A DNA stretch of 64,000 nt from a bacterium (GTDB taxonomy: Bacteria; Bacteroidota; Bacteroidia; Flavobacteriales_D; Crocinitomicaceae): positions 124,001 to 188,000 of the forward strand of contig JANSYQ010000002.1 in assembly GCA_024742305.1 (NCBI GenBank). The letters run 5' to 3'. The position numbers and the translations under genes were made by a program. The notes under the pieces are model-generated. The model searched no databases. It was not told where the DNA came from and saw only the letters and a list, made by a program, of their open reading frames with translations. Each line of letters starts with the position of its first letter. The stretch's first letter is position 1. Positions 1-15,692 of the stretch are shown here, piece after piece.

Positions 1-629
1 ATCTCAGAAGTTAAAAACCGTTGATTCAAAGTTCCTTCCCCCTTAGCAGTAAGGAAGTATCGGTAAATCTCATAATTATGAAACGCAATAAAATTGGCAT
101 ACTTTGGGGGTGATTCATCGAATATTGTAGAAAATCGGTGGTTTCTTTCGTCCAGTGAATACAACATTAGGGGAGTATCAAGCTCGTAAACAGAAATATC
201 TGGACGTGGGAGGTAATTGACGGAGTTACTATCGTGCTTAGGTAAAAATGATAAATCAATGTACTCATGAGCACGAAAATGCTGCGGCGGCTTGGAGAAC
301 TCTAAAAAATTAGTGTAAATATCGAATTCCCCAAAATAATTGGGTAACATCGGAAAACGGTCTCTCCACCAAATGCTACCAATTACAAAGCACCGAGTAA
401 ACTCTACATTGGCCGTGAACTCAATAGAAACTCGCCTTGAAAAAGATTTGATATTAGGTTTGTCAGGAACTTCGTTCTCGTAATTATGAATTAATTCATA
501 AGCATTTTCTATTCTCTGAAAGTATAAGGATAGATCATGGAAGCCATCCCGATAACGAAAAATTCGTTTAACATCGACAAGCCTGTAGGCATGTTCATCA
601 GGTAAGTTTAATAAATCACTTGGTTTCAT
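1..629 (-). CDS. Unknown protein, cut by the left edge
   Basis: An open frame runs from an ATG at 627-629 off the left edge with no stop, giving at least 209 residues. It starts inside the end of the XRE regulator gene (14-nt overlap in another frame), so the two are probably translationally coupled. The protein is soluble-looking, rich in aromatic and charged residues, with no signal peptide or membrane segment and no motif I recognise. A small HTH regulator overlapping the next gene resembles an antitoxin/toxin or repressor/effector arrangement, but that is inference only. Confidence 0.7.
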   Translation of the reverse strand, partial: MKPSDLLNLPDEHAYRLVDVKRIFRYRDGFHDLSLYFQRIENAYELIHNYENEVPDKPNIKSFSRRVSIEFTANVEFTRCFVIGSIWWRDRFPMLPNYFGEFDIYTNFLEFSKPPQHFRAHEYIDLSFLPKHDSNSVNYLPRPDISVYELDTPLMLYSLDERNHRFSTIFDESPPKYANFIAFHNYEIYRYFLTAKGEGTLNQRFLTSE

Positions 630-888
630 TAGTCAATTGAATCTTCCTTAAATATTCAAAGAAATCAAATACAGTCATATCGAAATGATTCAAAATTCTC
701 ATCAGCGTTCCCAAGGTCATGTTCTTACCCTTTTCGTATGCCCCGTATTGAGAACGGGACATTCCCATCTCGTAAGCGAGGTATTCATAATTTGTATGAC
801 CTTTCTCAATTCTAAGTGACCGAAGTCCATTTCCTATTTTTTCCAGTTGTTCTTGCTGAAGATCTAAAAGATTCTCTTCTTTTCCCAT
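616..888 (-). CDS. XRE-family helix-turn-helix regulator
   Basis: This 90-residue protein has a Cro/C1-type HTH over roughly residues 17-80. The segment LAYEMGMSRSQYGAYEKGK matches the helix 2-turn-helix 3 pattern, followed by a leucine-rich helix and a short C-terminal tail. There is no effector domain, so it is a stand-alone DNA-binding protein. It is the first gene of a pair with the partial gene to its left and is divergent from the OrfA-like gene at 984. It probably autoregulates, as such small regulators usually do. The family call is firm; the target is unknown. Confidence 0.85.
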   Translation of the reverse strand: MGKEENLLDLQQEQLEKIGNGLRSLRIEKGHTNYEYLAYEMGMSRSQYGAYEKGKNMTLGTLMRILNHFDMTVFDFFEYLRKIQLTNETK

Positions 889-960
889 AAGTCAAAAAAA
901 GAGAATGGTACACTTAAATGTTACCGTTTATTTATACCCCGTATTTAATAGGCTTTTTCG

Positions 961-968
961 TATATTTG
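961..968 (+). promoter_or_regulatory. Bacteroidota -7 box TATATTTG
   Basis: This is an exact match to TAnnTTTG, ending 15 nt before the ATG at 984. A clear -33 TTTG was not found. Its position inside the upstream part of the longer open frame argues that the OrfA-like gene starts at 984 rather than at 918. Confidence 0.5.
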
Positions 969-983
969 AATGAAATACCCGTA

Positions 984-1253
984 ATGAGAAAATCAAAATT
1001 TAGCACAGACGATAAGCTCAGAATCCTTACGGAACAGGAGGCAGAAGAGATGTCAATTGAGGAAATTTGCGTGAAATACGGAATAAGTCTCCCTACGTTT
1101 TATTCGTGGAAACGAGAACTTGCATTTAGATCCGAAATGAAAAGTGAAGGATCTAACGTCCAGGATTTACGAAATGAGATCCATACGCTTAGGAGATTGT
1201 ACATAGACCTCTCAGAGCACAACTATCAACTAGCTCAATTCTTGAATCAATAA
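984..1253 (+). CDS. Orphan IS3-type OrfA / HTH_Tnp_1-like protein
   Basis: The 89-residue product begins MRKSKFSTDDKLRIL and contains IEEICVKYGISLPTFYSWKRE, the helix-turn-helix signature of IS3/IS911 OrfA proteins. A C-terminal amphipathic helix follows, where OrfA proteins carry a leucine zipper. No OrfB (DDE integrase) and no terminal inverted repeats are visible next to it, so it is either an insertion-sequence remnant or a domesticated DNA-binding protein. The ATG at 984 is preferred over the in-frame ATG at 918 because a promoter box lies between them. It is divergent from the XRE gene. Confidence 0.7.
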   Translation: MRKSKFSTDDKLRILTEQEAEEMSIEEICVKYGISLPTFYSWKRELAFRSEMKSEGSNVQDLRNEIHTLRRLYIDLSEHNYQLAQFLNQ

Positions 1254-1291
1254 GTAAGATTAAACCAATTTACCCGGTTACAGTGGGAATC

Positions 1292-1701
1292 ATGTTGTTA
1301 TTCCTAATTTTTGGATCTTGCTCTGGTCGTCCGGATGCCGGCGATGTCGAAGATGATCTAGCAGAAAGAATTGAAACCGAATCGGAGGGAAGAATCACAC
1401 TCATAGATTTCTAGAAAACCAATTCAGTTGAATGCGAAGCATTCGGACAAGAATCCTACAAAATCTAGTTTACTGGTAAGATTCGCTTTGAGGAAGATTG
1501 TTATATCTATGCTAACAAATCTGGATTCGGTCCTCTTTTTGAAAGTTCCAAGACCTACAAAAGCAACCCAGCTTCAACCCCAGTATAGGTAAAGTTCTTT
1601 TTTCTGTGGAAAAGGGAGAGGAAGTTGAGTTCAAGGATAAGATAACTTACGTTGAGACTGAGAAAGGCTGGGTGAAGTCAGTTGGATCCAAACTATACTA
1701 A
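1292..1701 (+). pseudogene. Decayed lipoprotein gene
   Basis: The frame from ATG 1292 begins with a lipoprotein signal (MLLFLIFGSCSG) and is broken by TAG at 1412 and TAG at 1466. It stays protein-like on both sides (for example SVECEAFGQESYK and FEEDCYIYANKSGFGPLFES). Near 1575-1590 it needs a one-base frame change to continue as GKVLFSVEKGEEVEFKDK and GWVKSVGSKLY before TAA at 1699. The C-terminal part looks like a small SH3-type barrel. Two nonsense codons plus a frameshift indicate a dead gene, in keeping with decay at the edge of an accessory region. Confidence 0.65.
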
Positions 1702-1943
1702 ATCTATATCCCTCTGATTACTACTCCATATTTCAACTAAGTACTAATACGTAGTGGGATTCAGGTATAAATGCTGATTTTATTGGTGTCACTTTTTTTT
1801 TTCAGAATAATGATGCAACTTGCGTATGATATCTTCAAGCTGAAAACAAGTTATTAACCAACTTGAACAGAATATTGTGAAGAAAAAGTATTACTGCTCA
1901 TACGATTAATTCAATAATTCTCGTTCTTGCTAAAAAATCAAAC

Positions 1944-2258
1944 ATGTATTTCGCACAAACTAGAGTAGATTTTAACGCACCGCTGTACATTTCCATGTTT
2001 AATTCACTTATGGAAGGAAGAGGTGATTCGTATAGAAGTGAAATTGATTCAGTTCTTGTAGAAGCCAAAAAAGTGTACAATGGCGAGAAAGAAATTTACT
2101 CAATTAGTAACGATTACTTTAATCTCGTTTCTCTCTTGGTGAGTAAAGGAGAATCTTTGTTTGCAGATTTTAATGAGTCTGAAATCAAATCTTCAGATTA
2201 TCAAGGAGTATTGAACGTATTGGCTGATAGCCAAACTACGGTTTCTGATGAATCATAA
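1944..2258 (+). CDS. Small unknown protein upstream of metalloprotease
   Basis: The predicted product is 104 residues, mostly helical and acidic, with no recognised motif. Its last 11 nt overlap the start of the metalloprotease gene (GATGAATCATAA), a coupling arrangement that supports real translation. The reading frame stays open upstream to a TGA near 1877 and that stretch also reads like protein, so the true N-terminus could be earlier with a non-ATG start, or the gene could be a 5'-truncated remnant. Function unknown. Confidence 0.55.
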   Translation: MYFAQTRVDFNAPLYISMFNSLMEGRGDSYRSEIDSVLVEAKKVYNGEKEIYSISNDYFNLVSLLVSKGESLFADFNESEIKSSDYQGVLNVLADSQTTVSDES

Positions 2259-3321
2259 GACGTTTGAGTTAAACTTAACGCAGCTAGAAGAGTCTTTTTC
2301 CAAGAGTAAGAGCAACAAATACTCTAATCCGAGAAAGAAAAAGCACTTTGATCAGTTAAGAGAATTATTCGAAAAGATTAAAGTCGAAAATCACTCTGAA
2401 TTCACAAAAGAGGATTTAGAGGACCATTTTCAAATCTTCCAGTTTTTATTCAATGGATTAGAATTCTTGGATGATAGTACTTTGAACGCTACACCATATG
2501 AAATAGTTACTGGCCTTGAGAGAGCCTTGTCTGATTGGATTCCACAGGAAACATTTATTATAGTAACATCACTATCCAATAAGATCAATCATTTTAGTTT
2601 TGAAGGTAATAATGCCGAAAAGAATAATCAGCTTCGAAAAATAATTAAGGACAGATACGATTATGAAATTGAGCACCGTTTGATAAAAATCAATCTTCCA
2701 AAAGTGTTGGTAAGAGATTATTTAACTTGTGTTGTTCTCTATCATGAATTAGGCCATTTTATCGATTTGGAGTTGAATGTTAGTGCTAAACTCTTTCAGA
2801 ATAAATTTGGAAAGCCGCATATTTTGATGTTCACAAAAGAGGAGTTTCGCTACTATGCTCATGCCGGTGAATATTTTGCGGATCTATTTGCTGCACAGTA
2901 TATTGAGGATTCGTCGTCGATTTATTTAAATTACGTAGCTCATAATCATAGTGCGTCAAATACACATCCCGCGACATTTGATCGAATACAAAAGGTTCTG
3001 CAGTTTATAAATCAGGATTCTGATCCGCTAATTGAGGAAATTCAGCATGTGCTTCAACAGTCGGGAGTTTCACAGTTAGCCCTTAGATATGAAACGATTG
3101 ATCCAGAAACATCTGGATTTACCAATTTAATTCCGCATAAGGTTGAGAATGTAAATCAACTCCATGCGGTCTACAAACTCGGATGGGAAACTTGGATGAA
3201 ATCGGATGACAATTTTTTGTCCCGATTTGAACGCAGAGAAAGGTATCATATTGTTAATAATCTTATCGAAAAGAGCATTTCAAATTTTAATGTTCAGGAG
3301 ATTTGGGCGAAAAACATTTAA
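2248..3321 (+). CDS. HELGH zinc metalloprotease-like protein
   Basis: The 357-residue protein has a gluzincin signature: HELGH at residues 166-170, with a probable third ligand Glu208 in HAGEYFADLFAAQY and a conserved-looking HPATFDRI at 240-247, as seen in M48-like peptidases. There is no signal peptide or membrane helix, so it should act in the cytoplasm. A helical N-terminal half (1-150) may be a sensing or substrate-binding domain. It overlaps the gene before it and its stop codon abuts the ATG of the dCTP-deaminase-like gene, so the three probably form one operon. The catalytic motif is clear; the substrate is unknown. Confidence 0.75.
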   Translation: MNHKTFELNLTQLEESFSKSKSNKYSNPRKKKHFDQLRELFEKIKVENHSEFTKEDLEDHFQIFQFLFNGLEFLDDSTLNATPYEIVTGLERALSDWIPQETFIIVTSLSNKINHFSFEGNNAEKNNQLRKIIKDRYDYEIEHRLIKINLPKVLVRDYLTCVVLYHELGHFIDLELNVSAKLFQNKFGKPHILMFTKEEFRYYAHAGEYFADLFAAQYIEDSSSIYLNYVAHNHSASNTHPATFDRIQKVLQFINQDSDPLIEEIQHVLQQSGVSQLALRYETIDPETSGFTNLIPHKVENVNQLHAVYKLGWETWMKSDDNFLSRFERRERYHIVNNLIEKSISNFNVQEIWAKNI

Positions 3322-3936
3322 ATGGATCATAAAGGACTACTAACTAAGGGTGATTTAAAAACATTAATTGAATCAGGTGACTTAGTAATTGAACCATTAT
3401 TACAAGACTCTCAAATTGGAGAAATCTCAATTGACCTCAGAATAGGGACAGATTTTCTTACTAGCCAACTAGGTAGAGATCCGTACTTGGACACTTCCAT
3501 GGATGGTGAGCAAAAACCACCACTCAAGAGCTTTTTTAATGAAACCCGCAGAAATATCGGAGAATCATTTTTATTTCACCCTTCTCAGGTTGTACTTTTC
3601 TCCACGTTGGAATATATCAAGTTACCAAAGAATGTTATAGCCATTTTATCAACGAGAAGTTCGTATAGCCGACTGGGGTTGTCAACTTCAACCATTATTC
3701 AACCTGGCTATTGTGGGTGTATTTCGGTCGAAGTGAACTATTCTGGAAATACTCCTATCAAAGTTGTTACTGGAGCACGACTAGTTCAGGCGCGGTTCTA
3801 TCGACTAGAAGGTGAGACCGAGTATTTTAATGGACCTAGAAAGTATATATGCCAGGTTCGTCCTATTGCGTCAAAGGCAAATGAAGATAAGGACTTGGCG
3901 GTTTTAGATAGAATTGCACGAGATAACTTTGAATGA
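3322..3936 (+). CDS. dCTP deaminase-like protein (dCTP deaminase/dUTPase fold)
   Basis: The 204-residue protein carries the dCTP deaminase core: EPLLQDSQIGEISIDLRIG (24-42), the nucleotide-binding RSSYSRLGL (112-120), and PGYCGCISVEVNYSG (128-142), in which Glu137 sits at the position of the catalytic glutamate. The usual Gly-rich TGARLVQARF follows. An extra loop at about 47-80 is longer than in housekeeping Dcd. Its ATG follows the metalloprotease stop with no gap. Accessory-region Dcd enzymes can deplete dCTP during phage infection, but whether this copy is a defence effector or a nucleotide-metabolism enzyme cannot be decided from sequence. Confidence 0.8.
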   Translation: MDHKGLLTKGDLKTLIESGDLVIEPLLQDSQIGEISIDLRIGTDFLTSQLGRDPYLDTSMDGEQKPPLKSFFNETRRNIGESFLFHPSQVVLFSTLEYIKLPKNVIAILSTRSSYSRLGLSTSTIIQPGYCGCISVEVNYSGNTPIKVVTGARLVQARFYRLEGETEYFNGPRKYICQVRPIASKANEDKDLAVLDRIARDNFE

Positions 3937-4027
3937 ATTGACTCACCAACCTATGTGCGGCAGTAAACCTTTGGCACTTGCCAACGGAATCGTTCAAGTA
4001 GCGAAGAATATTGGAAGTAATAAAGAA

Positions 4028-4942
4028 CTAATTAACAGAAGAGATGATAATTTTTGTCTTTGATCTATTTACTTCACCCTTCGGAAACAAAAACACAAAT
4101 TGATTGTAAGTGTTATTAAAGAAGTGGTATGTAGCTTTTACTTCATCTCCAATTTTAGTTGTAAGTGTGATCTCCCCCTTGTCATTGTAACGTTTATTAA
4201 ACTTAAAATCCTTAATGAAACTCCAAGTAAAATCGAATTCATTGGGAAAATCTAACTCTCCGATTTCAGATAAAAACGATACCGAATGAAACACGTTACG
4301 TTTAGTACACGATGGCTCATTCCACATTGCATCTTTAATTGGATTAAGTACAAGAAGAGCACATCTTTTTTTCGACTTAAGCACATAATTTCTCAACGCT
4401 GAATGTATTGAAGAGCCAAACTGCTTGGCAAGAGCCATTGATGATTTAATACTTAATGACAATTTATCGGCTTCAGCCAAGAATCGGTCAAGCTGAAAGA
4501 GTGTCACAGATGCAAAATAATTAGCCTCAGCTTCGAATTCATCTTCAAATGTCAACAATAAAGTTTCATTATTATCCGAAGCTAACATTACCTCATTCTG
4601 CCATGGTAGTACCCCATGACCAGTTTCATGAAGTTTGACGAAGTTCTTTCGTCCCTCTGTTTGGTTTAAGTCAATGTAAATTGTTTTCTCTCTTCGATCA
4701 AAAAAACCTTTGACTTTTGAAAGCCCAGATTGAAGAATTTTGAACTTCTCGACTGATTCTTCACGAAGCCTGTCGAAAAACCCTTTTTCAACTTTACTTA
4801 AGTCGATACCTTTATCCACAACCAATTCGGTGTGTTGAAGTATTTTGTCAACAGGAGTTGGAAATACGTCAAAGGCTTTGCTCTGTTTCAGTATTTCGTG
4901 AGAAATTTTCTCGATGTCATACTTTGAAGAATCGTCAAGCAT
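4028..4942 (-). CDS. ImmA/IrrE-family metallo-endopeptidase
   Basis: The 304-residue protein has HETGH at 105-109 and FEAEANYFA at 136-144, the zinc-binding pattern of ImmA/IrrE (COG2856) peptidases, which cleave or inactivate partner repressors in mobile elements and stress responses. A C-terminal domain of about 140 residues, containing WSFIKDFKF and an aromatic-rich stretch, is unassigned and may be a sensor. It starts 6 nt after the XRE gene that precedes it, the classic ImmR-ImmA gene order. The local target may be the XRE protein next to it. Confidence 0.85.
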   Translation of the reverse strand: MLDDSSKYDIEKISHEILKQSKAFDVFPTPVDKILQHTELVVDKGIDLSKVEKGFFDRLREESVEKFKILQSGLSKVKGFFDRREKTIYIDLNQTEGRKNFVKLHETGHGVLPWQNEVMLASDNNETLLLTFEDEFEAEANYFASVTLFQLDRFLAEADKLSLSIKSSMALAKQFGSSIHSALRNYVLKSKKRCALLVLNPIKDAMWNEPSCTKRNVFHSVSFLSEIGELDFPNEFDFTWSFIKDFKFNKRYNDKGEITLTTKIGDEVKATYHFFNNTYNQFVFLFPKGEVNRSKTKIIISSVN

Positions 4943-4948
4943 TTTGGT

Positions 4949-5293
4949 TTATTGTTTAAATTTCAGGTACTCTAAGAACCTTAAAACTTCTTGGCGTTCT
5001 TCCGCTGTAAAATCTTCTGACGAAAATGCAATGCGTTCAACAAATTCGTTGTGTTTATTAACTTCTTCTTCTTCCTTTTTGTCAATAATTCCTGCGCTGG
5101 CTAAAAGATCGTTCAATGGAATTTTATAGAGCTTTGAAAGCTTGTACAAAATGTTGGCAGAGGGATTTTTGATCTTATCATTTTCCAATTGACTTAAATA
5201 CGCATTGGATATTTGTAAGGACTCTTCCACTTGAACTAGCGTGAGACCGAGTTTTTTTCTCGCTGTTTTTAGCGTGTTTCCTAATGTTTCCAT
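4949..5293 (-). CDS. XRE-family repressor partnered with ImmA
   Basis: The 114-residue protein starts METLGNTLKTARKKLG and has a textbook Cro/C1 HTH (LTLVQVEESLQISNAYLSQLE) over about residues 5-60, then an acidic helical tail. The ATG at 5293 is chosen over an upstream in-frame start at 5338 because a -7 promoter box lies between the two. It is first in a two-gene operon with the ImmA/IrrE peptidase. It is likely an autorepressor relieved by proteolysis, by analogy with ImmR/ImmA. Confidence 0.85.
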   Translation of the reverse strand: METLGNTLKTARKKLGLTLVQVEESLQISNAYLSQLENDKIKNPSANILYKLSKLYKIPLNDLLASAGIIDKKEEEEVNKHNEFVERIAFSSEDFTAEERQEVLRFLEYLKFKQ

Positions 5294-5309
5294 GTGCTCG
5301 TCTTTTTTA

Positions 5310-5340
5310 CAAAGGTAAGGCAATATTTGAGATTTCAAAT
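5310..5340 (-). promoter_or_regulatory. Promoter with overlapping palindromic operator
   Basis: The minus strand carries TACCTTTG (5310-5317), a perfect -7 box, 16 nt before the XRE start. Just upstream lies a perfect inverted repeat, ATTTGA-4 nt-TCAAAT (5325-5340), in the -10 to -33 interval. That is where an autorepressing XRE protein would be expected to bind. Confidence 0.5.
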
Positions 5341-5773
5341 AAAATCTTACTGAATTCTAAAAATATCAAGAAAAAGTTTTGCTAAGTCAGACTTCCTATA
5401 TATATTTGCCATCAAACGATCTTTTTTGAATTGGTCGGCTCTGATGTCATTCCATTTCAAAAACTACTTAAGAACAAATGAAACCACCTGTAATGAGGTT
5501 ATTAAAATTGATGCCAGTGAAATAAAGTTAATAGGAAATAAAAAAAGCCCAGATCTTAATCCGAGCTCTTCATACTACAGAAATTGTCTGCAATATTTTA
5601 TAATGGTACATCAAATATAAGACATTTCAGTGACATAAGATGTGTTTGTGATCTGTAAAGCTTACCACCGTTTGCTCATCGGTAAGCATTAGCGCTTTTT
5701 TTCTCGATAAATCATTGCCAGTTCTGAGGACTCTGGCGGAGCATATTTATTCATGACATAAAAAATTGAAATC
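5341..5773 (+). other. Gene-free spacer before the ubiquitin-like cassette
   Basis: No convincing gene is seen here. A perfect -7 box TATATTTG lies at 5401-5408, over 360 nt ahead of the cassette's first ATG, so it would give a long leader. A hairpin sits at 5660-5687. A 64-codon open frame starting with TTG at 5426 has no family features and is treated as chance. The spacer probably carries the control region of the cassette. Confidence 0.4.
5660..5702 (+). terminator. Hairpin followed by T-run
   Basis: The arms GCTTACC (5660-5666) and GGTAAGC (5681-5687) can pair around a 14-nt loop. A run of eight T begins 7 nt later (5695-5702). It could be a weak terminator or attenuator in the leader of the ubiquitin-like operon. 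Confidence 0.35.
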
Positions 5774-6421
5774 ATGTCAGAGAAAAAGGAAAGCGGTCAG
5801 AACCGCAATAACACAAACAAAAAACACAAGCACATGAAAGCTTATTTTGAAGTAAAGAAAGGAAAGAGTGGGCAATACCATTTTAATTTGGTCGCTCCGA
5901 ATCACGAAGTAATCTTAACGAGTGAACATTACCCGGAAAAGGCGAATTGCCTTAAGGGTTTGAAATCAGTTCAGGTTCACAGTCAAGACATTGTGAATTT
6001 TGAAAAGAGAACGTCCAAGAAGAATGAACCGTATTTCATTCTTAAAGCGCGCAATCACGAGCCAATTGGTACAAGTGAGATGTATTCTTCTGAACAAATG
6101 AGAGACCACGGAATCGAGGTTGTGATGAAGTACGGGTCTGCAACTGATGTTCAAGACGAAACGAGTACATCTGACCCTGACGACAAGGAGGTTATTATTA
6201 TCGTGAACGGGAGAGAGAAAACCTGGACGAAAAAGACCATTTCGTTTGAAGAGGTTGTAGTTCTTGCGTTTGGAAGCATCTCTTCCAACCCGAATACCTG
6301 TTATACAGTAACGTACAGCAGAGGAAGTGGGCAAAAACCAGAAGGTTCCATGGTGAAAGGACAAGAAGTAAAGGTTAAATCTAAAATGGTGTTCAATGTC
6401 ACAGCAACTGATAAATCATAA
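5774..6421 (+). CDS. Tandem YegP (DUF1508) repeats fused to a multiubiquitin-type ubiquitin-like domain
   Basis: This 215-residue protein has three parts. After a basic N-terminus (1-20), two YegP/DUF1508 units follow at about 21-66 and 73-118; the second contains KNEPYFILKARNHEPIGTSEMY, a family hallmark. The C-terminal domain (138-215) matches the multiubiquitin family: IIIVNGREKTWTKKTISFEE, then YTVTYSRGSGQKPEG and MVFNVTATDKS ending at the very C-terminus. It lacks a terminal Gly-Gly. The domain is a beta-grasp ubiquitin-like module presumed to be a substrate of the E1-like protein encoded next, which overlaps it by 26 nt. Conjugation is inferred from family context and not shown by sequence. 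Confidence 0.8.
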   Translation: MSEKKESGQNRNNTNKKHKHMKAYFEVKKGKSGQYHFNLVAPNHEVILTSEHYPEKANCLKGLKSVQVHSQDIVNFEKRTSKKNEPYFILKARNHEPIGTSEMYSSEQMRDHGIEVVMKYGSATDVQDETSTSDPDDKEVIIIVNGREKTWTKKTISFEEVVVLAFGSISSNPNTCYTVTYSRGSGQKPEGSMVKGQEVKVKSKMVFNVTATDKS

Positions 6422-7571
6422 TTCGGATTTAAAGCAGCTTCGTAACGAAGGGTATCAAGTGGAAGTATATGGTGGACATTTAGTTGTCCACCATATTCCT
6501 TACGTCACACCTGAAAGAAAGCCTGCTATGGGGGTACTCGTTAGCGAGTTATCCCTGAGTGGTAATAACACTGTGAAACCATCAACCCACGTAATGCTGT
6601 TTTCAGGCGAACAACCATGTAACATGGATGGTTCCATAATAACAGGACTTCAGCACGGTGCTCAAAACCGTCCACTGGGGAACGGTATCACAATCAATAG
6701 GTCCTTTTCCAATAAACCTCCCAGTGGTTATTCTAATTATTACGAGAAGGTCAAGCGTTACGCAGAGATAATTTCTGCACCGGCAATCGCTTTGGATGAA
6801 ACTCTGACTGATAGACCATTCAAACCCATTTTAACTCCGGATGATTCTGTCTTTAAGTATCTCGATACAAACTCAAGTCGTGCTAATATTGAGTTCATCA
6901 ACCAAAAGTTGTCGGATCAGAAAATTGCCATCGTTGGTTTAGGAGGTACGGGAGCGTATGTGTTGGACCTAGTGGCGAAAACGTGTGTTTCAGAAATACA
7001 CCTTTTTGACGGTGATGTTTTTCTCAACCATAATGCTTTTCGATCTCCAGGAGCGGCATCATTGGACGTTTTAAATACCCAAACTCGGAAAGTTGAGTAT
7101 TACACCCAAGTTTATGGTGCAATGAGACGTAAGATTATACCACATGATTATTACGTAACAAAGGAAAATATGCACGAACTATTGGGCATGGATTACGTTT
7201 TTCTTTGTATTGACAATAACTTGATTCGTTACGAGTGTATCGAATTTCTATTGTTGAATGCAGTGTCTTTCATTGATGTAGGATTGGGAGTTAACATAGT
7301 CGATAACGAGTTAATAGGAACAGTTAGAGTGACCAGTGGTCTTGAAACTAAAAAGGATCACATTGCTGGTAGAATTCCTAAAGGAGAAGATGGTGATAAC
7401 GAATATGCCACAAATGTTCAAATTGCTGAGCTCAACTCGCTTAACGCTACGTTAGCAGTTTTGAAATGGAAGAAGTTGTCGGGTTTCTATCAGGATCTTG
7501 AAAAGGAATGCCATACAACTTATTCAATCAATGTATCACAATTACTAAATGAAGATCGTGATGAAGCATAA
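6396..7571 (+). CDS. DUF6791-ThiF protein: E2-like plus E1-like fusion
   Basis: The 391-residue protein has a DUF6791-like N-terminal domain (about 12-145: LRNEGYQVEV, HHIPYV, MGVLVSELSLSG, HVMLFSGEQPC, SNYYEKVKRYAEII), considered E2-related, with Cys75 available. The C-terminal ThiF/E1 domain (about 160-375) has the nucleotide loop GLGGTG (181-186), DGD (205-207), the N-x4-R arginine finger (N210, N212, R216) and CIDN (271-274). It should adenylate the C-terminus of a ubiquitin-like partner. It overlaps the genes on both sides, indicating a tightly coupled three-gene operon. The thioester-forming Cys of the E1 part is not obvious. Confidence 0.85.
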   Translation: MSQQLINHNSDLKQLRNEGYQVEVYGGHLVVHHIPYVTPERKPAMGVLVSELSLSGNNTVKPSTHVMLFSGEQPCNMDGSIITGLQHGAQNRPLGNGITINRSFSNKPPSGYSNYYEKVKRYAEIISAPAIALDETLTDRPFKPILTPDDSVFKYLDTNSSRANIEFINQKLSDQKIAIVGLGGTGAYVLDLVAKTCVSEIHLFDGDVFLNHNAFRSPGAASLDVLNTQTRKVEYYTQVYGAMRRKIIPHDYYVTKENMHELLGMDYVFLCIDNNLIRYECIEFLLLNAVSFIDVGLGVNIVDNELIGTVRVTSGLETKKDHIAGRIPKGEDGDNEYATNVQIAELNSLNATLAVLKWKKLSGFYQDLEKECHTTYSINVSQLLNEDRDEA

Positions 7572-7905
7572 GTTCGTTGAGTTCATACCGGAAATACTTG
7601 AACCAGGAGTTCTATACATTTCAATTAAATATTCCACAGCTGTACACGCTTGCGTGTGCGGTTGTGGTAATGAAGTTGTAACACCAATAGCGCCAACTGA
7701 TTGGAGTTTAACCTTTCATGGTGATAGCGTTAGTCTACACCCTTCAATTGGTAACTGGAGTTTTGATTGTCAATCGCACTACTGGATTAAGAAGGGACAG
7801 GTAACACACTGCCGTAAATGGGATAATAGCAAAGTAGACGCCGGAAGGAAAAAAGACAAGAAAACTAAGCGACGGAAGTTTAGAAAACGCTGGATTATTT
7901 TTTAG
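7561..7905 (+). CDS. DUF6527 protein, predicted metal-binding partner
   Basis: The 114-residue product fits DUF6527: LEPGVLYISIKYSTAVHACVCGCG, then VVTPIAPTDWSL, VSLHPSIGNW and CQSHYWI. His29, Cys31, Cys33, Cys35, Cys70 and His73 could form a zinc site, and the SIGNW motif is characteristic. A lysine/arginine-rich tail occupies 91-110. It is the third gene of the cassette, overlapping the E1-like gene by 11 nt from ATG 7561 (ATG 7549 is also in frame). Family members recur with multiubiquitin/E1 genes. A role as deconjugating peptidase or accessory factor is only inference. Confidence 0.8.
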   Translation: MKHKFVEFIPEILEPGVLYISIKYSTAVHACVCGCGNEVVTPIAPTDWSLTFHGDSVSLHPSIGNWSFDCQSHYWIKKGQVTHCRKWDNSKVDAGRKKDKKTKRRKFRKRWIIF

Positions 7906-7932
7906 CTATTAAAAATCTCGTCTCATTCACTC

Positions 7933-7949
7933 TTGTTGCCTTGCAACAA
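7933..7949 (+). terminator. Small perfect hairpin after the cassette
   Basis: TTGTTGC-3 nt-GCAACAA forms a perfect 7-bp stem 28 nt after the DUF6527 stop. It is not followed by a T-run, so it may be a weak terminator or mRNA-end structure. Confidence 0.3.
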
Positions 7950-8130
7950 TATTTCTCCAACTCTTGTGATTTGTTTCACCTTCTTCTGTTATCAAAGTAG
8001 CCTAAACGCCCTGATTTTGTTTCATTTACTTATGTATCTGACACCAAAATGCGTTTTTGCGAAAAAAAATCTACTTTTTTTCAATGATTGTTCATTTTGG
8101 TATATTGTTTTCTCAAAATTCAATCGTGCC

Positions 8131-8673
8131 ATGACCAAAAAATTACTTCTGCTCCTCATTTTATTCTCTGGTTTCTTCTGTTTTGGACAAAGCGACACAC
8201 TAAAAACGGACTACCCTGGTTTCGAAGACATTTTGGATTCAATGAATATGACCTTTATTGCTCCCAAAAACATGGAAGAGACGGCGCCAATAGAAAATCG
8301 ACAAATGAATTACGAAAAGGCTTACCGAGATACAGCGGCACGATTTGAAGTACGTTACGCCTTGCGTAGACATAACATGGGATTTATTCCGCAGATTTTC
8401 GAAGCAACTACCTTAAACATTTCCGGAGGACATCTTCCGGAATACTCCATCTTCGGCAGTGAGGCCGTAAAAAACGAATTTGGAGCTGATGGAGGCGCAA
8501 CAGTTGGTGTTCCCGTAGGCACCGAGTTTGGTCAGGAGTACCAATATTGCTTACTTGTTTATATACACAAAACGGGCATTGGAGACGCGTACATGTTCTA
8601 CTTAGCCGATGACCAATCAATTATTGGTGATCGCATGTCGCCGCTATTTCATAATTTGCGATTTGAGGAATGA
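8131..8673 (+). CDS. Exported protein of unknown function
   Basis: The start is placed at ATG 8131, giving MTKKLLLLLILFSGFFCFGQSD, a clear signal peptide with likely cleavage after FCFG; the longer upstream open frame (from 7933) lacks protein character. The mature protein (about 160 residues) has no recognised domain and one Cys. It probably sits in the periplasm. It stands alone between the ubiquitin-like cassette and the next small gene. Confidence 0.7.
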   Translation: MTKKLLLLLILFSGFFCFGQSDTLKTDYPGFEDILDSMNMTFIAPKNMEETAPIENRQMNYEKAYRDTAARFEVRYALRRHNMGFIPQIFEATTLNISGGHLPEYSIFGSEAVKNEFGADGGATVGVPVGTEFGQEYQYCLLVYIHKTGIGDAYMFYLADDQSIIGDRMSPLFHNLRFEE

Positions 8674-8717
8674 AATATATAATATAGTTATAGTTAATAG
8701 ACCAGAACGAAACCACG

Positions 8718-9074
8718 ATGAATCATTTACTAGAAAGTCAAATTAAACCTCATCTTCATCATAGTAAGGAAATAGAACAGTTCCTGGGGAAGACTGTAAT
8801 TGGCGATTACGAAGTTTTACGCTGGATTTCTATTGTATACAACAAAGACAATTACAAATTATTAGTGCATGAAGTTTTTGATGACCGCGACGAGGGAATT
8901 GAAAGCATTTACGACTTCTCATATTTTACTCCTGACGATCAATTTGGCAGACAACTTTTCATAAGTACTGATTTAAACGAAGTACTTGAATTTGCTGTAG
9001 AAAGCTTTGGAGTCGATAATTCCAAATATTCTCTCTTTGGCAATTTGGACGCCAACCTCATTCATGACCTGTAA
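8718..9074 (+). CDS. Unknown small cytoplasmic protein
   Basis: A 118-residue acidic protein without signal peptide or membrane segment. It contains a beta-rich central part (YEVLRWISIVYNKDNYKLLVHEVFDD) and ends FGNLDANLIHDL. No family recognised. Open-frame length and regular composition support a real gene; neighbours give no functional clue. Confidence 0.6.
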   Translation: MNHLLESQIKPHLHHSKEIEQFLGKTVIGDYEVLRWISIVYNKDNYKLLVHEVFDDRDEGIESIYDFSYFTPDDQFGRQLFISTDLNEVLEFAVESFGVDNSKYSLFGNLDANLIHDL

Positions 9075-9096
9075 CTATAACATCAACTATAAAAAA

Positions 9097-9135
9097 TAGG
9101 GCAACAATTATGTCCAAGAAAAGCCCTACTTTCTA
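9097..9135 (+). terminator. Possible terminator hairpin
   Basis: TAGGGC (9097-9102) and GCCCTA (9123-9128) can pair, preceded by A6 and followed by a pyrimidine-rich CTTTCT stretch. The loop is long (20 nt), so this is a weak call. Confidence 0.25.
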
Positions 9136-9157
9136 TAGCTGAAAACCGTTAGCGCGA

Positions 9158-10252
9158 ATGAAGAATTGGATATATTTATGCCTCGTTTTAGCATTCACGT
9201 CCTGCACGGGAGGCAAAGACGATGTAGATAATAATACAGATCAAATCGAATCTGAAATAATAAGGAGTACTATCACCGAATTAGTACCCTACACTTCTGA
9301 GATCCGATTGATAGTTCCTGCTAAAGGTGGAGAGGAGTCCAGTAAGTTAGAAGCTCGAGAGGAGGCGTTTTTTATTGAGCACGAACAAATAGAACAAAAC
9401 GGAGAGGCATATTTTATTTTGTCTAACAAATTGACTGTTCCTATTCCAGGGGAAAGGTATATTTCCGAACAAGGCTTTTCAAACTCCTTACTTCACTTTT
9501 TATTTTATACTGCAAAAAAGAGATCGGTTGCTAATTCTGACATTGATAGGCTACATGAACTAAATGTCAGAAAGGAGAATATAAACACTGTGAATCACAA
9601 CGAGATCAATAAACCCGGATGTTATGGATATATTGAATATTCAAGAATGAAGTTCTCTGATAATAATACGAAAGCGGAATTTATATTTAAATACCGGCTC
9701 AATCATGGAATGGATATAACTCAACTCGTAACTGTAAATAAACATGAAAATAATTGGCAAATTGTAAATCGAGAAGACTTATTAGTGTCCTACGAACCAC
9801 CTGACTCATCTTTTGAACCAACTAAAATTATTGATACACTAATAGCCCCAAAATATAATGATTCTGATTTTGAGATAACATTTGAAGAACGAGAAAATGC
9901 AATTCCTTTTCCGAGAAATACAGATATCATTGTGACCGTGAAACAAACTGCATTTGATAAGAACTTCTTGAAATTTGTAGAATTCGACTTCTCTGTTAAT
10001 CGATCGGCTAATGATCTAAACAAATTAGATTTGGTGAAAATTAATGACTCTACATACAAGATGAATATTGACGAGTGCTATTCAGAAAATTATGTGGCAT
10101 TTGACGTTCGCATTGCACCCAAGCGTGGCTATATTTATAGTGACTTTCTCGAAGCAAGTCAGTACACGCGTTATGTAGATCACTTAAGTTCAGCGTCATT
10201 AAAAGTTTGGTATGGTTCAGTACAGCAGATCGATAATTCAAAATGTAAGTAA
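9158..10252 (+). CDS. Lipoprotein of unknown function
   Basis: A 364-residue protein starting MKNWIYLCLVLAFTSCTGG, a lipoprotein signal with the lipobox Cys16. The mature part begins with an Asp/Asn-rich linker. The rest is beta-rich with no repeat or catalytic motif recognised. Likely anchored in the outer or inner membrane. It is monocistronic; a hairpin terminator follows at 10333. Confidence 0.7.
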   Translation: MKNWIYLCLVLAFTSCTGGKDDVDNNTDQIESEIIRSTITELVPYTSEIRLIVPAKGGEESSKLEAREEAFFIEHEQIEQNGEAYFILSNKLTVPIPGERYISEQGFSNSLLHFLFYTAKKRSVANSDIDRLHELNVRKENINTVNHNEINKPGCYGYIEYSRMKFSDNNTKAEFIFKYRLNHGMDITQLVTVNKHENNWQIVNREDLLVSYEPPDSSFEPTKIIDTLIAPKYNDSDFEITFEERENAIPFPRNTDIIVTVKQTAFDKNFLKFVEFDFSVNRSANDLNKLDLVKINDSTYKMNIDECYSENYVAFDVRIAPKRGYIYSDFLEASQYTRYVDHLSSASLKVWYGSVQQIDNSKCK

Positions 10253-10332
10253 AATGAGTTGCTAACATCAACTAAAAGCCACGGGCTGAAAAACCACTGC
10301 GGAGAAGCCCGCATATCCTAGTTGAGAAACGT

Positions 10333-10352
10333 AAGCCCATTGGTGGGTTTTG
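10333..10352 (+). terminator. Rho-independent-type terminator
   Basis: A compact hairpin (AAGCCCA-loop-TGGGTTT, one G-U pair) running into TTTT, 80 nt after the lipoprotein gene. Confidence 0.45.
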
Positions 10353-10407
10353 AACAAAATATCATAGAAACAGAGAAATAGTTTGGGCTGATTTTCTTTT
10401 TAGTTCT

Positions 10408-10470
10408 ATGCAAGCGATAATCCCAATTGCAATAATAATCGCAGTTATAATTTTACTAAACAAAAACTAA
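10408..10470 (+). CDS. Possible 20-residue hydrophobic peptide
   Basis: A short frame encodes MQAIIPIAIIIAVIILLNKN, essentially one membrane-spanning helix, ending 12 nt before the SRPBCC gene. It may be a small membrane protein or type I toxin-like peptide, or a chance AT-rich frame. No start signal is evident. Confidence 0.3.
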   Translation: MQAIIPIAIIIAVIILLNKN

Positions 10471-10482
10471 AAAAGTAAAACC

Positions 10483-10869
10483 ATGGAATTCACCCTAAAA
10501 ACCATCATCAATACCACCCCAAAAGAAGTCTACGATGCTTGGCTCAATAGCGAGTCGCATTCTAAAATGACAGGTGGTGAGGCAGAAGTTACCGATGACG
10601 TTGGAGCACGTTTTACTGCTTGGGATGGTTACATTGAAGGAACAAACTTAGAACTTGAACCAAACAAGAGAATTGTGCAGTCGTGGCGAACCTCAGAGTT
10701 TGAGGAGAATGATGAAGATTCTACCATCGAGATCTTATTGAACGAGGTTGACGGAAAAACAGAACTTACGTTGATTCACACACAACTTTCAGAAGATGGT
10801 GAGCAGTACATTAACGGCTGGAAAGAGCACTATTTTGAACCGATGAAAGCATTTTTTAATGCTAAATAA
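10483..10869 (+). CDS. SRPBCC / AHSA1-like START-domain protein
   Basis: A 128-residue protein with the AHSA1-type SRPBCC pattern: an N-terminal strand (FTLKTIINTTPKEVYDAWLN), the central W-x-G region (FTAWDGYIEG), RIVQSWRTSEF, and a C-terminal helix after YINGWKEHYFEPMKAFF. Such proteins bind hydrophobic ligands or assist chaperones in the cytoplasm. The length equals a single SRPBCC domain. The gene ends at a shared bidirectional terminator with the convergent YceI gene. Ligand unknown. Confidence 0.8.
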   Translation: MEFTLKTIINTTPKEVYDAWLNSESHSKMTGGEAEVTDDVGARFTAWDGYIEGTNLELEPNKRIVQSWRTSEFEENDEDSTIEILLNEVDGKTELTLIHTQLSEDGEQYINGWKEHYFEPMKAFFNAK

Positions 10870-10870
10870 A

Positions 10871-10913
10871 AAGGGCCACGTCATCTCAATGACAGCGACC
10901 CTTCCCTATTTTT
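10871..10913 (+). terminator. Bidirectional terminator
   Basis: An inverted repeat (AAGGG...GTCAT pairing across 10871-10903) lies between convergent genes and is followed on the plus strand by TATTTTTTAAA. It likely ends transcription of the SRPBCC gene and, in reverse, the YceI gene. Confidence 0.55.
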
Positions 10914-10923
10914 TAAACGATTC

Positions 10924-11553
10924 TTACTTCGTAAGTACGGCGTCTATTTCAAAGGCAATTACCGGAGAAATGGATTCATCTTCCTCCTCTTGTGGCTCAA
11001 ACAAAGGCACATTCAAACTCGAGAAGTCTACTTCGAATTTGCCGGATAGTTTTGCTCCTTTATCGTCCGTAGAAATCGTTACAGGAACTGTCGTTTCAAC
11101 AGCCTTTCCAAGCACATTGATTTTTACAGACAATTTTCCATCACTGTAATCTCCTAAAGTAACCGTAGTTGTCGCGTACTGTGCAATATTCCAAACATCC
11201 TCAGCACCAAGGTGTCCTTCCAATTTGTTTTTCGATTTCTCAGGCATACCTTCGTCTGTGACATTGATGGTTGTCATATCCACTACAAACGATCCACTTT
11301 CAACGGCATCTCCTTTCATAGTCATGCTTCCTTCCGAAAATTTCAAGGTTCCTACGTGAGATTCATGCTCTCCCTCAAATCCTTCCCAATACAAGGTAGA
11401 TTCCTCTGTATTTAGTGAGTAGGTTACTGACTCGGCTGCCATTTCTTGTTTTTGATCTCCTGTTTCGTCTGTTGTTTCCGTAGTTTCTTCAGCTCCACAA
11501 GACGCCAACAAGGCTCCGGCAGCAATAATTGCGAAAAATGCGTTCTTTTTCAT
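10924..11553 (-). CDS. YceI-family lipoprotein
   Basis: The 209-residue product starts with a lipoprotein signal (LLASCGAEE, lipobox Cys19) and an acidic/threonine-rich linker. A YceI-like lipocalin barrel follows from about residue 42: STLYWEGFEGEHESHVGTLKFSEGSM, then GSFVVDMTTINVTDEGM and DVWNIAQYATTTVTL. YceI proteins bind isoprenoid-like lipids in the periplasm; here the protein would be membrane-anchored. An acidic loop EPQEEEDESISP near the C-terminus is distinctive. Monocistronic and convergent with the SRPBCC gene. Confidence 0.8.
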   Translation of the reverse strand: MKKNAFFAIIAAGALLASCGAEETTETTDETGDQKQEMAAESVTYSLNTEESTLYWEGFEGEHESHVGTLKFSEGSMTMKGDAVESGSFVVDMTTINVTDEGMPEKSKNKLEGHLGAEDVWNIAQYATTTVTLGDYSDGKLSVKINVLGKAVETTVPVTISTDDKGAKLSGKFEVDFSSLNVPLFEPQEEEDESISPVIAFEIDAVLTK

Positions 11554-11748
11554 ATTGAATGTTTTTTTACGTTTCTTGTTTTGATAGCTGTAAATATAAT
11601 GGATGCGCTATGAAGACGATCTACTCAATTCGATAATACCACAATTGTGGTACTCAATTTTTGACCCCACGTTCTTTTGACCCGATTATAACTGCCACCA
11701 TTCGATCAATTAAATTTTACTATTTTGATCGACCGATAAATTCTTCCC

Positions 11749-12441
11749 ATGCGCCACCTCATTCTCTTCGTTTCATTGGCCCTATTCAACTGCCTCGCAC
11801 TTGGTCAGGAAGAGGACGCGCTAATCGGACAAAATCCCAACCCCAATCAAACGAGCATTGATTTCATTTTCTGCTCGCATATTTACAACAACGATTTTAT
11901 CAGCGAGTTCAATACCTTCAATAACTATGAGGCGCTTCGGCCCGTGAATTCTGTTGGATTATCTGTGAGTAGCTACTACCTCGCCAATAAAAAGTTTCAG
12001 GCTGGGTTTCATTATTCGTATGCACAAATTCTACCGCACGATATCAACCTTAACGACACGTTAACCGGGCGCATTAACGGCTTCAATTTCTCCCTGAGCC
12101 TTGCCTCTATAAATGTGACTCCAAAGTCAAAACACACCAACATCGCTTTTGGTATTGGATTCAATACCGGTCGACTTCGAATGACCGCGCAGAACCGACG
12201 CTCTCAAAAAAATCCTTATTTCGCACCGGCATTGTTTTTCAACCCAAGATTTTTCCTTGGGAGATTTGTCATTGGGTTACGCGCAGAATATCAATTCGAT
12301 ATCTCACGTCCTACATGGCGCTCTGTGAATGTCAACGCCGACCAAACGTCTTTCGCTTTGAGTGAATTCCGCCAAACAGGACTGATTCCGAGCTTTTCCA
12401 TTGGATTTGTACCAAAACTGAAAGATGGAGGAACTAAGTAA
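11749..12441 (+). CDS. Predicted outer-membrane beta-barrel protein
   Basis: A 230-residue protein with signal peptide (MRHLILFVSLALFNCLALGQ, cleavage after LG). The rest alternates hydrophobic and polar residues with many aromatic girdle residues (FHYSYAQILPHD, FNFSLSLASINV, FVIGLRAEYQFDI) and ends in a strand, as in small outer-membrane barrels. No specific family recognised. Its last 17 nt overlap the Crp/Fnr regulator gene, so both are probably co-transcribed. Confidence 0.65.
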   Translation: MRHLILFVSLALFNCLALGQEEDALIGQNPNPNQTSIDFIFCSHIYNNDFISEFNTFNNYEALRPVNSVGLSVSSYYLANKKFQAGFHYSYAQILPHDINLNDTLTGRINGFNFSLSLASINVTPKSKHTNIAFGIGFNTGRLRMTAQNRRSQKNPYFAPALFFNPRFFLGRFVIGLRAEYQFDISRPTWRSVNVNADQTSFALSEFRQTGLIPSFSIGFVPKLKDGGTK

Positions 12442-12994
12442 ACATATCCAATCGTACTTTGATACGCGCAACGACATTGCGGAAGTGTTGGCGAATCGCT
12501 TTCAGGTACAGAACCTTTCTCGAAACGATTTTCATACATCCCTTGGAAGTAGACATGGAGATTTGAGTTTTGTGAAGTCGGGCTACTTGCGCGTTTATCG
12601 TTCTACAGAAAAGAAGGAAGTTACTCAATGGATTTCATCTCCTGGCGAATTCACTACTGACTTAGGACCGCTTATGTTCAATCAAACCGCCCGCTGGAAC
12701 ATTCAGGCACTAACCGATTGTGAACTCTATACGCTTCCCTTTTCCGAGTACCGGAAGGTTCAGCAGGAACTTCCTGAGTGGCCACAAATTGAAAAATTAT
12801 TTCTAGCGAAATGCTTCATGACCATTGAGGATCGTATTTTCAGTTTCATCTCGATGACCGCAGAGGAGCGTTACCACTTCTTACTAGAGTTCAAACCTGA
12901 TTTGTTTCTTCAAGTACCCCATCAATATTTGGCTTCTATGCTTGGAATGACTCCCGAAACCTTCAGTCGTGTGAGAAAGAAAATCGTTTCTTGA
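12425..12994 (+). CDS. Crp/Fnr-family transcriptional regulator
   Basis: A 189-residue protein with a cyclic-nucleotide-binding-like N-terminal barrel (GDLSFVKSGYLRVYRSTEKKEVTQWISSPGEFTTD) and a C-terminal winged helix (VPHQYLASMLGMTPETFSRVRKK, about 163-186). There is no Fe-S cysteine cluster, so it is not an FNR-type oxygen sensor. It overlaps the upstream barrel-protein gene and lies 52 nt before an SRPBCC gene, a pairing common in Bacteroidota. It may control the nearby SRPBCC/TspO/photolyase genes; this is inference. Confidence 0.85.
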   Translation: MEELSKHIQSYFDTRNDIAEVLANRFQVQNLSRNDFHTSLGSRHGDLSFVKSGYLRVYRSTEKKEVTQWISSPGEFTTDLGPLMFNQTARWNIQALTDCELYTLPFSEYRKVQQELPEWPQIEKLFLAKCFMTIEDRIFSFISMTAEERYHFLLEFKPDLFLQVPHQYLASMLGMTPETFSRVRKKIVS

Positions 12995-13046
12995 CATTTG
13001 TCAAGAGTCAGCCCCTTTGATGTGCTGATCTTTGTAAAAAAGAAAC

Positions 13047-13469
13047 ATGAAATATCACATCAACACTTCGATCAACATCAACGCAAACATTAATACTGTT
13101 TGGAATACCTTCACTCAGTTTGACGATTATCCGAACTGGAACTCATTTATCAAATCCGTACAAGGAAACATTCAAGAAGGTGAGAAAATCAAGATTGAAA
13201 TTGACGGCTCAAAGTTCTCTCCAAAAGTACTGTCATTTAAGAAAGAAAAAGAACTGATTTGGGTCGGAAAACCACTAATGCCCGGAATTTTTGAGGGGGA
13301 ACACGCATTTCGATTTGAGGAAAATCCCGACGGTACAACAACCTTACTCCATGAGGAACATTTTCGTGGGATATTGGTCCCTTTCATGAAGAAATACCTG
13401 CGTACAAAGGCAGTTGATGGCTTCAAACATTGGAACAAGACGCTGAAGGAGAAAGCTGAAAAACGTTAG
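13047..13469 (+). CDS. SRPBCC-domain protein
   Basis: A 140-residue single-domain START-like protein: INANINTVWNTFTQFDDYPNWNSFIKSV (N-terminal strand-helix), a middle barrel, GEHAFRFEENPDGTTTLLHEEHFRGILVPF and a long C-terminal helix. This is the polyketide-cyclase/dehydrase-like subgroup that binds small hydrophobic ligands. No signal peptide. Likely transcribed from its own promoter (GATCTTTG upstream, near-consensus) after the Crp/Fnr gene. Confidence 0.8.
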   Translation: MKYHINTSININANINTVWNTFTQFDDYPNWNSFIKSVQGNIQEGEKIKIEIDGSKFSPKVLSFKKEKELIWVGKPLMPGIFEGEHAFRFEENPDGTTTLLHEEHFRGILVPFMKKYLRTKAVDGFKHWNKTLKEKAEKR

Positions 13470-13491
13470 TTAATGCGTATTGAAAGAGTTG

Positions 13492-13499: not shown

Positions 13500-13503
13500 G
13501 TGT

Positions 13504-13998: not shown

Positions 13999-14003
13999 TC
14001 GCA

Positions 14004-15691: not shown

Positions 15692-15692
15692 T

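Follow-up and report, generated by a model that had tools for sequence, protein, structure and literature searches.

We examined a 64,000-nucleotide stretch of DNA from a member of the Crocinitomicaceae (Bacteroidota; assembly GCA_024742305.1, contig JANSYQ010000002.1, positions 124,001 to 188,000), here called the window, that contains three overlapping genes encoding a ubiquitin-like (Ubl) protein (gene A), a fusion of DUF6791 with an E1-type adenylation domain (gene B) and a DUF6527 protein (gene C). We propose that these genes form a streamlined, Bub-related cassette for Ubl conjugation, and we give this proposal, taken with all five of its steps, a probability of about one half. The sequences themselves show the parts of the cassette and their linkage, the overlap between A and B, selection for a terminal serine on the Ubl, that no cysteine of B is invariant, and that the genes are located on an island. 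A preliminary description of this DNA had named three overlapping genes with ubiquitin-like, YegP, DUF6791-ThiF and DUF6527 labels. Both the gene structure and the labels held up. The plus strand has uninterrupted, overlapping open reading frames (ORFs) at 5774..6421, 6396..7571 and 7549..7905 (the last more likely starting at 7561), and every label corresponds to a Pfam match above its cut-off. The features of the cassette are:

5774..6421, plus strand: gene A, two YegP (DUF1508) repeats and one C-terminal Multi_ubiq beta-grasp domain; 215 amino acids with the C-terminus ...VFNVTATDKS
5834..6157, plus strand: the YegP pair, residues 21-128 of A; phmmer match to 2k49 over residues 21-130 (2.1e-24)
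6416..6418, plus strand: codon for the terminal serine of the Ubl; Ser in 82/82 operons including the window and in 12/12 further records
6396..6421, plus strand: 26 nucleotides in which A and B overlap out of frame; measured from the B ATG to the last base of the A stop, the overlap has this length in 82/82 operons
6396..7571, plus strand: gene B, 391 amino acids; a fusion of DUF6791, at residues 10-158, with a ThiF/E1 adenylation domain (Pfam, AlphaFold2, Foldseek)
6708..6710, plus strand: codon for Ser105 of B, a candidate acyl-acceptor serine; Ser in 88/88
7561..7905, plus strand: gene C, DUF6527 protein; 114 amino acids (118 from the start at 7549) with invariant Cys31, Ser62 and His73

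Protein A matched DUF1508/YegP with 105.6 bits in two stretches (cut-off 22; 1.2e-30) and Multi_ubiq with 60.8 bits (cut-off 24.5; 1.5e-16). The matches of protein B were to DUF6791 (185.6 bits, cut-off 25), to ThiF (44.9, cut-off 28.1) and, end to end, to NCBIfam PRK06153.1-4 (568 bits against a cut-off of 352), and protein C matched DUF6527 with 86.2 bits (cut-off 23.6; 1.4e-24). Solved relatives of A were found by sequence at both ends, E. coli YegP and SO_3888 (2k49/2k8e) at the front and 9cd2 at the end, and a search of the PDB by sequence found no solved relative of C. An Rfam scan of window positions 1-16000 gave nothing above the gathering score.

Linkage, gene overlap and the terminal serine

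Seven aligned B proteins, used to scan a genome collection, gave at least 569 relatives, of which the best 80 loci were used together with three more loci from viral contigs. We excluded L091 before all counts since it contains only a partial E1 (26 bits), and the remaining 82 of 83 loci and the window were analysed and hold 84 B genes. The genome scan was baited with two E1 motifs, so the E1 residues G181-T185 and H212-G219 are partly selected for; the bait motifs do not cover DUF6791, the Ubl end or DUF6527. The alignment of B has 73 rows, 11 near-identical or truncated rows of the 84 having been left out, and those of C and A hold 53 of 84 and 51 of 82 proteins.

A DUF6527 gene lies no more than 3 kilobases (kb) downstream of B for all 84 B genes, and a Ubl gene lies directly upstream of B for 82 of them. 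The other two B genes (L031 and L041) begin 137 bases from the end of their contigs, too near for a Ubl to be visible. This neighbour search agrees with the earlier view that the three genes belong together. In four loci B and C are separated by a gene longer than 1 kb. A protein of about 650 amino acids is encoded at this position inside the operon in L042, L043, L046 and L048 (its cluster is found in 6 loci), and in L043 it has a PADLOC dCTPase match (393 bits) and a dCMP-deaminase domain.

The cassette is rare and scattered, since DUF6791 is present in only 6 of 296 genomes of its own phylum, the genome of the window included. Among 72,556 plasmid records, B had matches in 123 (E <= 1e-5); in 109 the match spans 80% or more of the query, and some of the weak ones are of Bub type. 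B had no match in 50,697 phage records. One contig (L080) carries two cassettes in opposite orientation.

The C-terminal residue of the Ubl was serine in 94 of 94 operons, comprising the 82 of the main set and 12 plasmid-borne operons (L092-L094 and L110-L118) from Bacteroidota, Pseudomonadota, Bacillota and Actinomycetota. In the Streptomyces record among these (L118), B and C are listed in the gene table and the Ubl ORF upstream of 2501 is missing from it, showing that PLSDB gene tables are incomplete. The use of the overlapping ATG as the start of B was our choice, and in several loci the longest B frame opens further upstream. The annotated B start agrees with the 26-base overlap in eight of the nine plasmid records that annotate both genes (L092-L094, L110, L111 and L113-L115), the exception being L116 with 41 bases. 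L116 and L117 have no start codon where B would be expected to begin.

Conservation by itself proves little within the overlap because two proteins share its bases. The last Ubl codon was TCA in 45 of the 82 operons, TCG in 24 and TCT in 13, which are synonymous for the Ubl, and in B the varying base turns residue 8 into His, Arg or Leu in matching numbers (25/23/11 among 59 distinct overlap sequences). Thus, selection at this point acts on the serine of the Ubl and not on B.

The beta-grasp fold of the Ubl domain of A was checked by Pfam and through its sequence match to a solved Ubl. This structure, 9cd2, is of the ZDHYS365 multi-ubiquitin domain protein; the family profile of the Ubl covers it from end to end (4.5e-48) and it also ends in TDKS, so that one Ubl of the family has probably been solved already. 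It differs from A in aligning end to end with a 233-amino-acid Ubl of three domains, whereas the window protein has YegP repeats and one Ubl domain. The fusion of YegP to a Ubl was found in 3 of 82 operons, those of the window, L011 and L073 (Photobacterium). A second YegP-type gene is found elsewhere in the same genome (G000:C40:288884-289177, in a frame of 118 amino acids). Small DUF2188 proteins (PADLOC candidate PDC-S16) are encoded near the operon in 17 loci (for example L035:8763-9008), and in 12 loci a DUF2188 ORF lies about 1.2-1.4 kb upstream of B. We considered kinship between DUF1508 and DUF2188 and distrusted it, the match covering 20 columns only (score 13.8; best of 100 shuffles 13.3); an analogy of position remains.

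Enzyme domains and comparison with Bub and type 6e operons

The AlphaFold2 model of B, made from 73 B proteins, had a predicted local distance difference test (pLDDT) score of 92.2. Its eight best PDB matches by Foldseek were all Citrobacter BubCD (best 1.8e-13), followed by UBA5, PaaA, ThiF and MccB, and a profile comparison of the E1 domain with BubCD gave 2.1e-9. The E1 fold anticipated in the preliminary description is therefore predicted for B. The adenylation residues that it had called intact (GLGGTG, D205-G-D207 and R216) are conserved as well: across 88 B proteins, most of which were found via E1 motifs that include R216, the residues G181, G183, G184, G186, D207, R216, K232 and D273 occur in 88/88 and D205 in 87/88.

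Within DUF6791, P35, H65, G71, P74, S105 and Y122 were invariant in the 88 proteins and residue 107 was Lys or Arg in all of them. By contrast, B has no invariant cysteine. Only the columns of Cys75 and Cys271 contain cysteine in more than a quarter of the 73 rows; Cys271 is Cys in 63 of 88 proteins, and at position 75 there are 78 proteins with Cys, 7 with His and 3 with Tyr. Cys75 was invariant in the first seven sequences and was then lost in 4/73 and later in 10/88, leading us to reject it as an obligatory E2 cysteine. With no cysteine of B invariant, a cysteine thioester is unlikely to be the shared mechanism, and Ser105 is a candidate acyl acceptor in its place. When DUF6791 was aligned by hhalign with Prok-E2_E domains (14 domains, L098 having been left out of the set), the global and low-threshold modes placed Ser105 opposite the serine of the W-S-R-H motif, a position that is Ser in 14/14 of these domains; the default mode ends before Ser105. 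We treat this suggestive alignment as a lead and not as proof. We infer that DUF6791 may be an E2. Of the E1-like/E2-like fusion claimed earlier, the E1 part thus stands; the E2-like label is given by no database match, is weakly supported by hhalign and is at most suggestive.

The cassette shares with Bub operons a Multi_ubiq Ubl, an E1 domain related to BubCD, DUF6527 and, in some records, ImmA/HTH regulator genes. Our reference was the Bub operon of a Citrobacter braakii plasmid (L095), which over its E1 stretch shares 88% identity with the solved BubCD. It comprises, in order, two regulator genes, a Ubl-Prok-E2_E fusion, a JAB-ThiF protein and a DUF6527 protein. The regulator genes have weak HATPase and winged-helix matches (capK/capS by position), and the PDB chains 9d59 (Ubl), 9ea8_B (BubA 155-229) and 9eav_D (BubB) align to the fusion protein. 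Nine more Bub-type records were examined; a DUF6527-like protein was aligned from eight and L108 annotates none. An ImmA/IrrE gene stands beside an HTH gene in 4 of the 10 Bub-type records. For Bub, Ye et al. 2026 reportedly describe a serine oxyester and removal of the Ubl by a serine protease.

The window type also differs from Bub. First, no Prok-E2_E (BubB) or JAB domain was detected, and DUF6791 is fused to the E1 instead. Profiles for Prok-E2_E and JAB (E <= 1e-4) matched in 0/95 DUF6791-type records, covering stretches of about 5 to 21 kb, and in 10/10 Bub-type records, the latter by construction since their sequences helped to build the profiles. Judged by these profiles, DUF6791 occurs where the E2 and JAB are missing. 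Second, Ubls of the window type end in Ser and Bub Ubls have Gly: the C-termini are TEG in L104, L106 and L107, the joint between Ubl and E2 reads NNG in L095, L101 and L102, TDG in L103 and TEG in L105, and in L108 and L109 residues continue past a glycine.

In DUF6527, Cys31, Ser62 and His73 were invariant in 53/53 proteins and in 21/21 of a wider set. Across nine DUF6791-type and nine Bub-type proteins only Cys31, Pro61, Ser62 and His73 were invariant, and the same four residues are present in three phage proteins. The AlphaFold2 model of DUF6527 had a pLDDT of 90.0, and in BFVD two viral proteins matched at E <= 0.001, the better one sharing 52% identity. Searches of the 50,697 phage records found DUF6527 in three (tblastn, E <= 1e-3; all above the Pfam cut-off) and no match to the window Ubl domain. 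The carriers and gene positions are:

Erwinia phage pEa_SNUABM_29 (249 kb), Burkholderia phage FLC9 (322 kb) and Dulem virus 40 (73 kb): phages with a solo DUF6527 gene
L142:2986-3255, L143:2944-3258 and L144:2977-3261: positions of the solo phage genes

No E1, Ubl, DUF6791, E2 or JAB was found in 6 kb around each of these genes. The phage proteins retain H29, C31, C33, C35, P61, S62, C70, S72 and H73. A solo, conserved copy in phages would fit a role in counter-defence, and DUF6527 may be a deconjugase.

Cap2 (of CBASS) and Bil are bacterial E1-based conjugation systems that act in defence, which the cassette may share with them. They differ in that the PADLOC E1-E2 profiles cover only about 45-110 residues of the window E1. 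A Pfam scan of six neighbouring proteins found no cGAS-like gene among them.

Cassettes of this kind were known before. The present one belongs to the 'domain X' subset, with a domain in place of JAB, of operon type 6e as set out in the relevant passages of Iyer, Burroughs and Aravind 2006 (PMC1779556), and it is kin to Bub. Those passages describe a polyUbl gene, an E1 with an uncharacterised N-terminal domain replacing JAB, a Cys/His metal-binding protein Y and a mobile, sporadic distribution. The polyUbl gene of type 6e has one to three Ubl domains and that of the window one (a Multi_ubiq match); the non-JAB N-terminal domain corresponds to DUF6791 in front of ThiF, with no JAB match; and the metal-binding pattern C-x3-C-x35-38-H-x2-C is similar, not identical, to C31-x3-C35-x34-C70-x2-H73 of the window DUF6527. 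As far as these passages go, domain X was left unexplained, with the speculation that it acts like JAB. YegP has 0 occurrences in the text of that paper, and its relevant passages do not mention a terminal serine, a gene overlap or phage copies. The preliminary description had called the working of this three-gene type unsettled; the type itself had been described already, and its JAB-bearing sister Bub has solved structures (PDB 9ea4, 9ea5, 9ea8, 9eae and 9eav). Among the papers listed by a literature text search there was none on a DUF6791-type cassette; the main Bub papers and preprints lie outside its coverage, so priority is not assured. To our knowledge, several features have not been described before: the terminal serine held by selection, the overlap of fixed length, an enzyme in which Ser105 but no cysteine is invariant, YegP fused to the Ubl, and DUF6527 carried alone by phages.

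Proposed mechanism and alternative explanations

An XRE repressor gene next to an M78 peptidase gene, resembling CapH and CapP, lies divergent from the operon. This is the adjacent ImmA/XRE pair noted earlier, on the minus strand at 4028..4942 and 4949..5338. The features of the control region are:

4949..5338, minus strand: CapH-like XRE repressor (PADLOC capH 9e-9; Pfam HTH_19 9.8e-15); probable start near 5293, by sequence
4028..4942, minus strand: CapP-like M78 metallopeptidase with an HETGH motif (PADLOC capP 1e-16; Pfam Peptidase_M78 4.2e-10)
5378..5408, plus strand: promoter-like site TTTG-N19-TAnnTTTG of Bacteroidota type, between CapH and A; the sole exact match in 64 kb, with 0.63 expected by chance

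We take TTTG-N19-TAnnTTTG to be a promoter motif of Bacteroidota. Of the 75 operons for which 2.5 kb or more of upstream sequence was available, 36 have a CapP-like M78 gene no more than 4 kb upstream, divergent in 28; four of the seven seeds of the profile used came from the scanned loci themselves. By analogy, the pair suggests induction by DNA damage. In known pairs, CapP activated by single-stranded DNA cleaves CapH, according to the part of PMC13373217 that concerns this control. The same part reports CapW or CapH with CapP at 219 of 544 Bub operons and a YegP homologue after capK-capS in 57 cases, and states that phage protection by Bub had not been demonstrated. The passage of PMC4963859 on Multi_ubiq proteins places 70% of them beside toxin-antitoxin-like loci with the same COG2856/DUF955 domain.

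We propose the following sequence of events. DNA damage would make CapP active, and cleavage of the repressor CapH would release the Ubl operon. In the second step, suggested by the conserved residues, the E1 half of B would adenylate the native C-terminal serine of the Ubl. Trimming would not be needed here since the Ubl ends at the serine and no JAB protease was found. DUF6791 would then do the work of the missing E2, with the acyl group passing to Ser105 as an oxyester, without a cysteine, and from there to a target amine. In a fourth and weaker step, DUF6527 may undo the conjugation with Ser62 and His73 (or Cys31 and His73) as catalytic residues, and the solo phage copies may serve as counter-defence. 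Lastly, the YegP pair could be an exchangeable N-terminal payload or targeting part of the window Ubl. The end of the tag and the start of the enzyme are encoded in the same 26 bases. Stated at its strictest, as a cysteine-free system in which a tag with a native serine passes through the E1 to the serine of a fused, highly diverged E2 ('domain X'), is removed by DUF6527 and has had its remover taken by phages as counter-defence, the idea is tentative and we think it rather unlikely to be right in every part.

Several observations weigh against the proposal. The hhalign comparison of 88 DUF6791 with the 14 Prok-E2_E domains gave a weak score of 18.0 and a probability of about 1%; column-shuffled controls reached or exceeded the score in 2/100 local, 4/100 global and 4/100 smaller-set trials; and an unrelated Ubl alignment scored 16.5 in local and 4.5 in global mode, where DUF6791 scored 18.0 and 7.6. 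The fold comparison covered B as a whole and not DUF6791 by itself. Conjugated ubiquitin-like proteins known to us end in glycine and are usually carried on cysteines, so a conjugator ending in Ser would be unusual. The model of DUF6527 had no PDB fold match at E <= 0.001, making protease action a guess. The phage copies are few (3/50,697) and the one in L142 adjoins a Peptidase_S80 gene, so DUF6527 may serve another purpose in phages. The control of the operon is predicted by homology; the full promoter motif is absent from 10 other regions between CapH and A (8 have the TAnnTTTG half), and no common palindrome that could be a CapH operator was found in 11 intergenic regions.

Of the alternatives, the one that survives best concerns DUF6527, which could be a target-recognition or ligase factor needed for conjugation, with the phage copies diverting the system. 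Its Cys/His pattern is like that of a zinc finger, and recognition of targets is the role put forward for the zinc finger protein in the relevant passage of Iyer et al. 2006 (PMC1779556). The metal-type cysteines 33, 35 and 70, however, are lost in some Bub members, whereas Cys31, Ser62 and His73 are kept, a pattern that looks more like an active site. We consider this role somewhat unlikely.

It is less probable that B modifies the C-terminus of the Ubl without conjugation to other proteins, the product or a Ubl filament being the effector. MccB modifies its Asn-terminal peptide in this way, MccB and PaaA are among the near E1 folds, and the terminal residue of the Ubl is an unusual and strictly kept serine. 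Filament formation could also be argued from 9cd2, which presumably comes from work on oligomerising Ubls. The nearest fold, however, is BubCD and not MccB, and the Bub partner DUF6527 is kept, which makes this explanation improbable.

We regard as quite improbable that DUF6791 is a JAB-like processing domain, the speculation made for 'domain X' by Iyer et al. 2006, with an E2 that comes from elsewhere or is unneeded. DUF6791 does sit N-terminal to the E1, where Bub has JAB, but it has no JAB match by Pfam or by the JAB profile, the Ubl has no extension to cut, and Prok-E2_E was not found in 95/95 records within the stretches covered. The least likely alternative is a classical E1-E2 relay with a thioester on Cys75, as in the E2-E1 fusions of Cap2 type, since Cys75 lies within a conserved GEYPCxxDG motif in 78/88 proteins but is His or Tyr in 10/88, no other cysteine of B is invariant, and the four proteins without Cys75 in the initial set (L058, L065, L076 and one of L080) have the Ubl and DUF6527 in their operons.

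If the proposed Bub-related cassette works as outlined, a widespread family with a serine-held tag and no obligatory enzyme cysteine would show a different way of running the reaction. The 'domain X' of Iyer et al. becomes directly testable by point mutants (S105, C75 and the terminal Ser), and phage DUF6527 copies, should they strip the tag, would be evidence that the group acts against phages.

Island setting and neighbouring genes

The cassette lies on an island. The genes flanking it are 5.9 kb apart in a sister genome (G313) and 17.9 kb apart in the genome of the window. Homology with the sister genome ends at L008:6476 and returns at about 10453 of the window, so that about 16 kb replace about 0.7 kb. 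An island setting had been suggested earlier, and this comparison provides it; together with the CapH/CapP-like pair, the mobile island also supports the defence or stress setting suggested at the same time. Two features are placed here:

1..10452, no strand: the part of the island inside the window; the island is about 16 kb and its left end lies outside, at about G000:C54:118477
3322..3936, plus strand: dCTP deaminase, a neighbour on the island (NCBIfam TIGR02274, 116 bits, cut-off 92.8)

The left end of the island (L008) contains genes for TnsA, a TnsB-type transposase, TniB (TnsC/TniB) and TniQ in a row. A search for transposon ends found no convincing inverted repeats, or terminal repeats with a target duplication, bounding the cargo. 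On a Klebsiella plasmid, too, the cassette adjoins genes annotated as TnsA, transposase, ATPase and TnsD. Within the sequence covered, none of the 82 other loci had Tns relatives (E <= 1e-6), and the link to Tn7-like elements is therefore occasional.

Other genes were observed near the cassette. A pair resembling the anti-phage genes IetA/IetS adjoins it in L025 (3499-7170) and relatives, the two protein clusters occurring in 15 and 17 loci, some of them near-identical. DUF3892 proteins are encoded near the cassette in two plasmid records. In the window, the gene at 2248..3321 encodes a putative metallopeptidase with weak M48 and Lit matches and adjoins the dCTP deaminase gene, and an XRE-type regulator and a short IS3-like accessory ORF lie inside the island at 616..888 and 918..1253.

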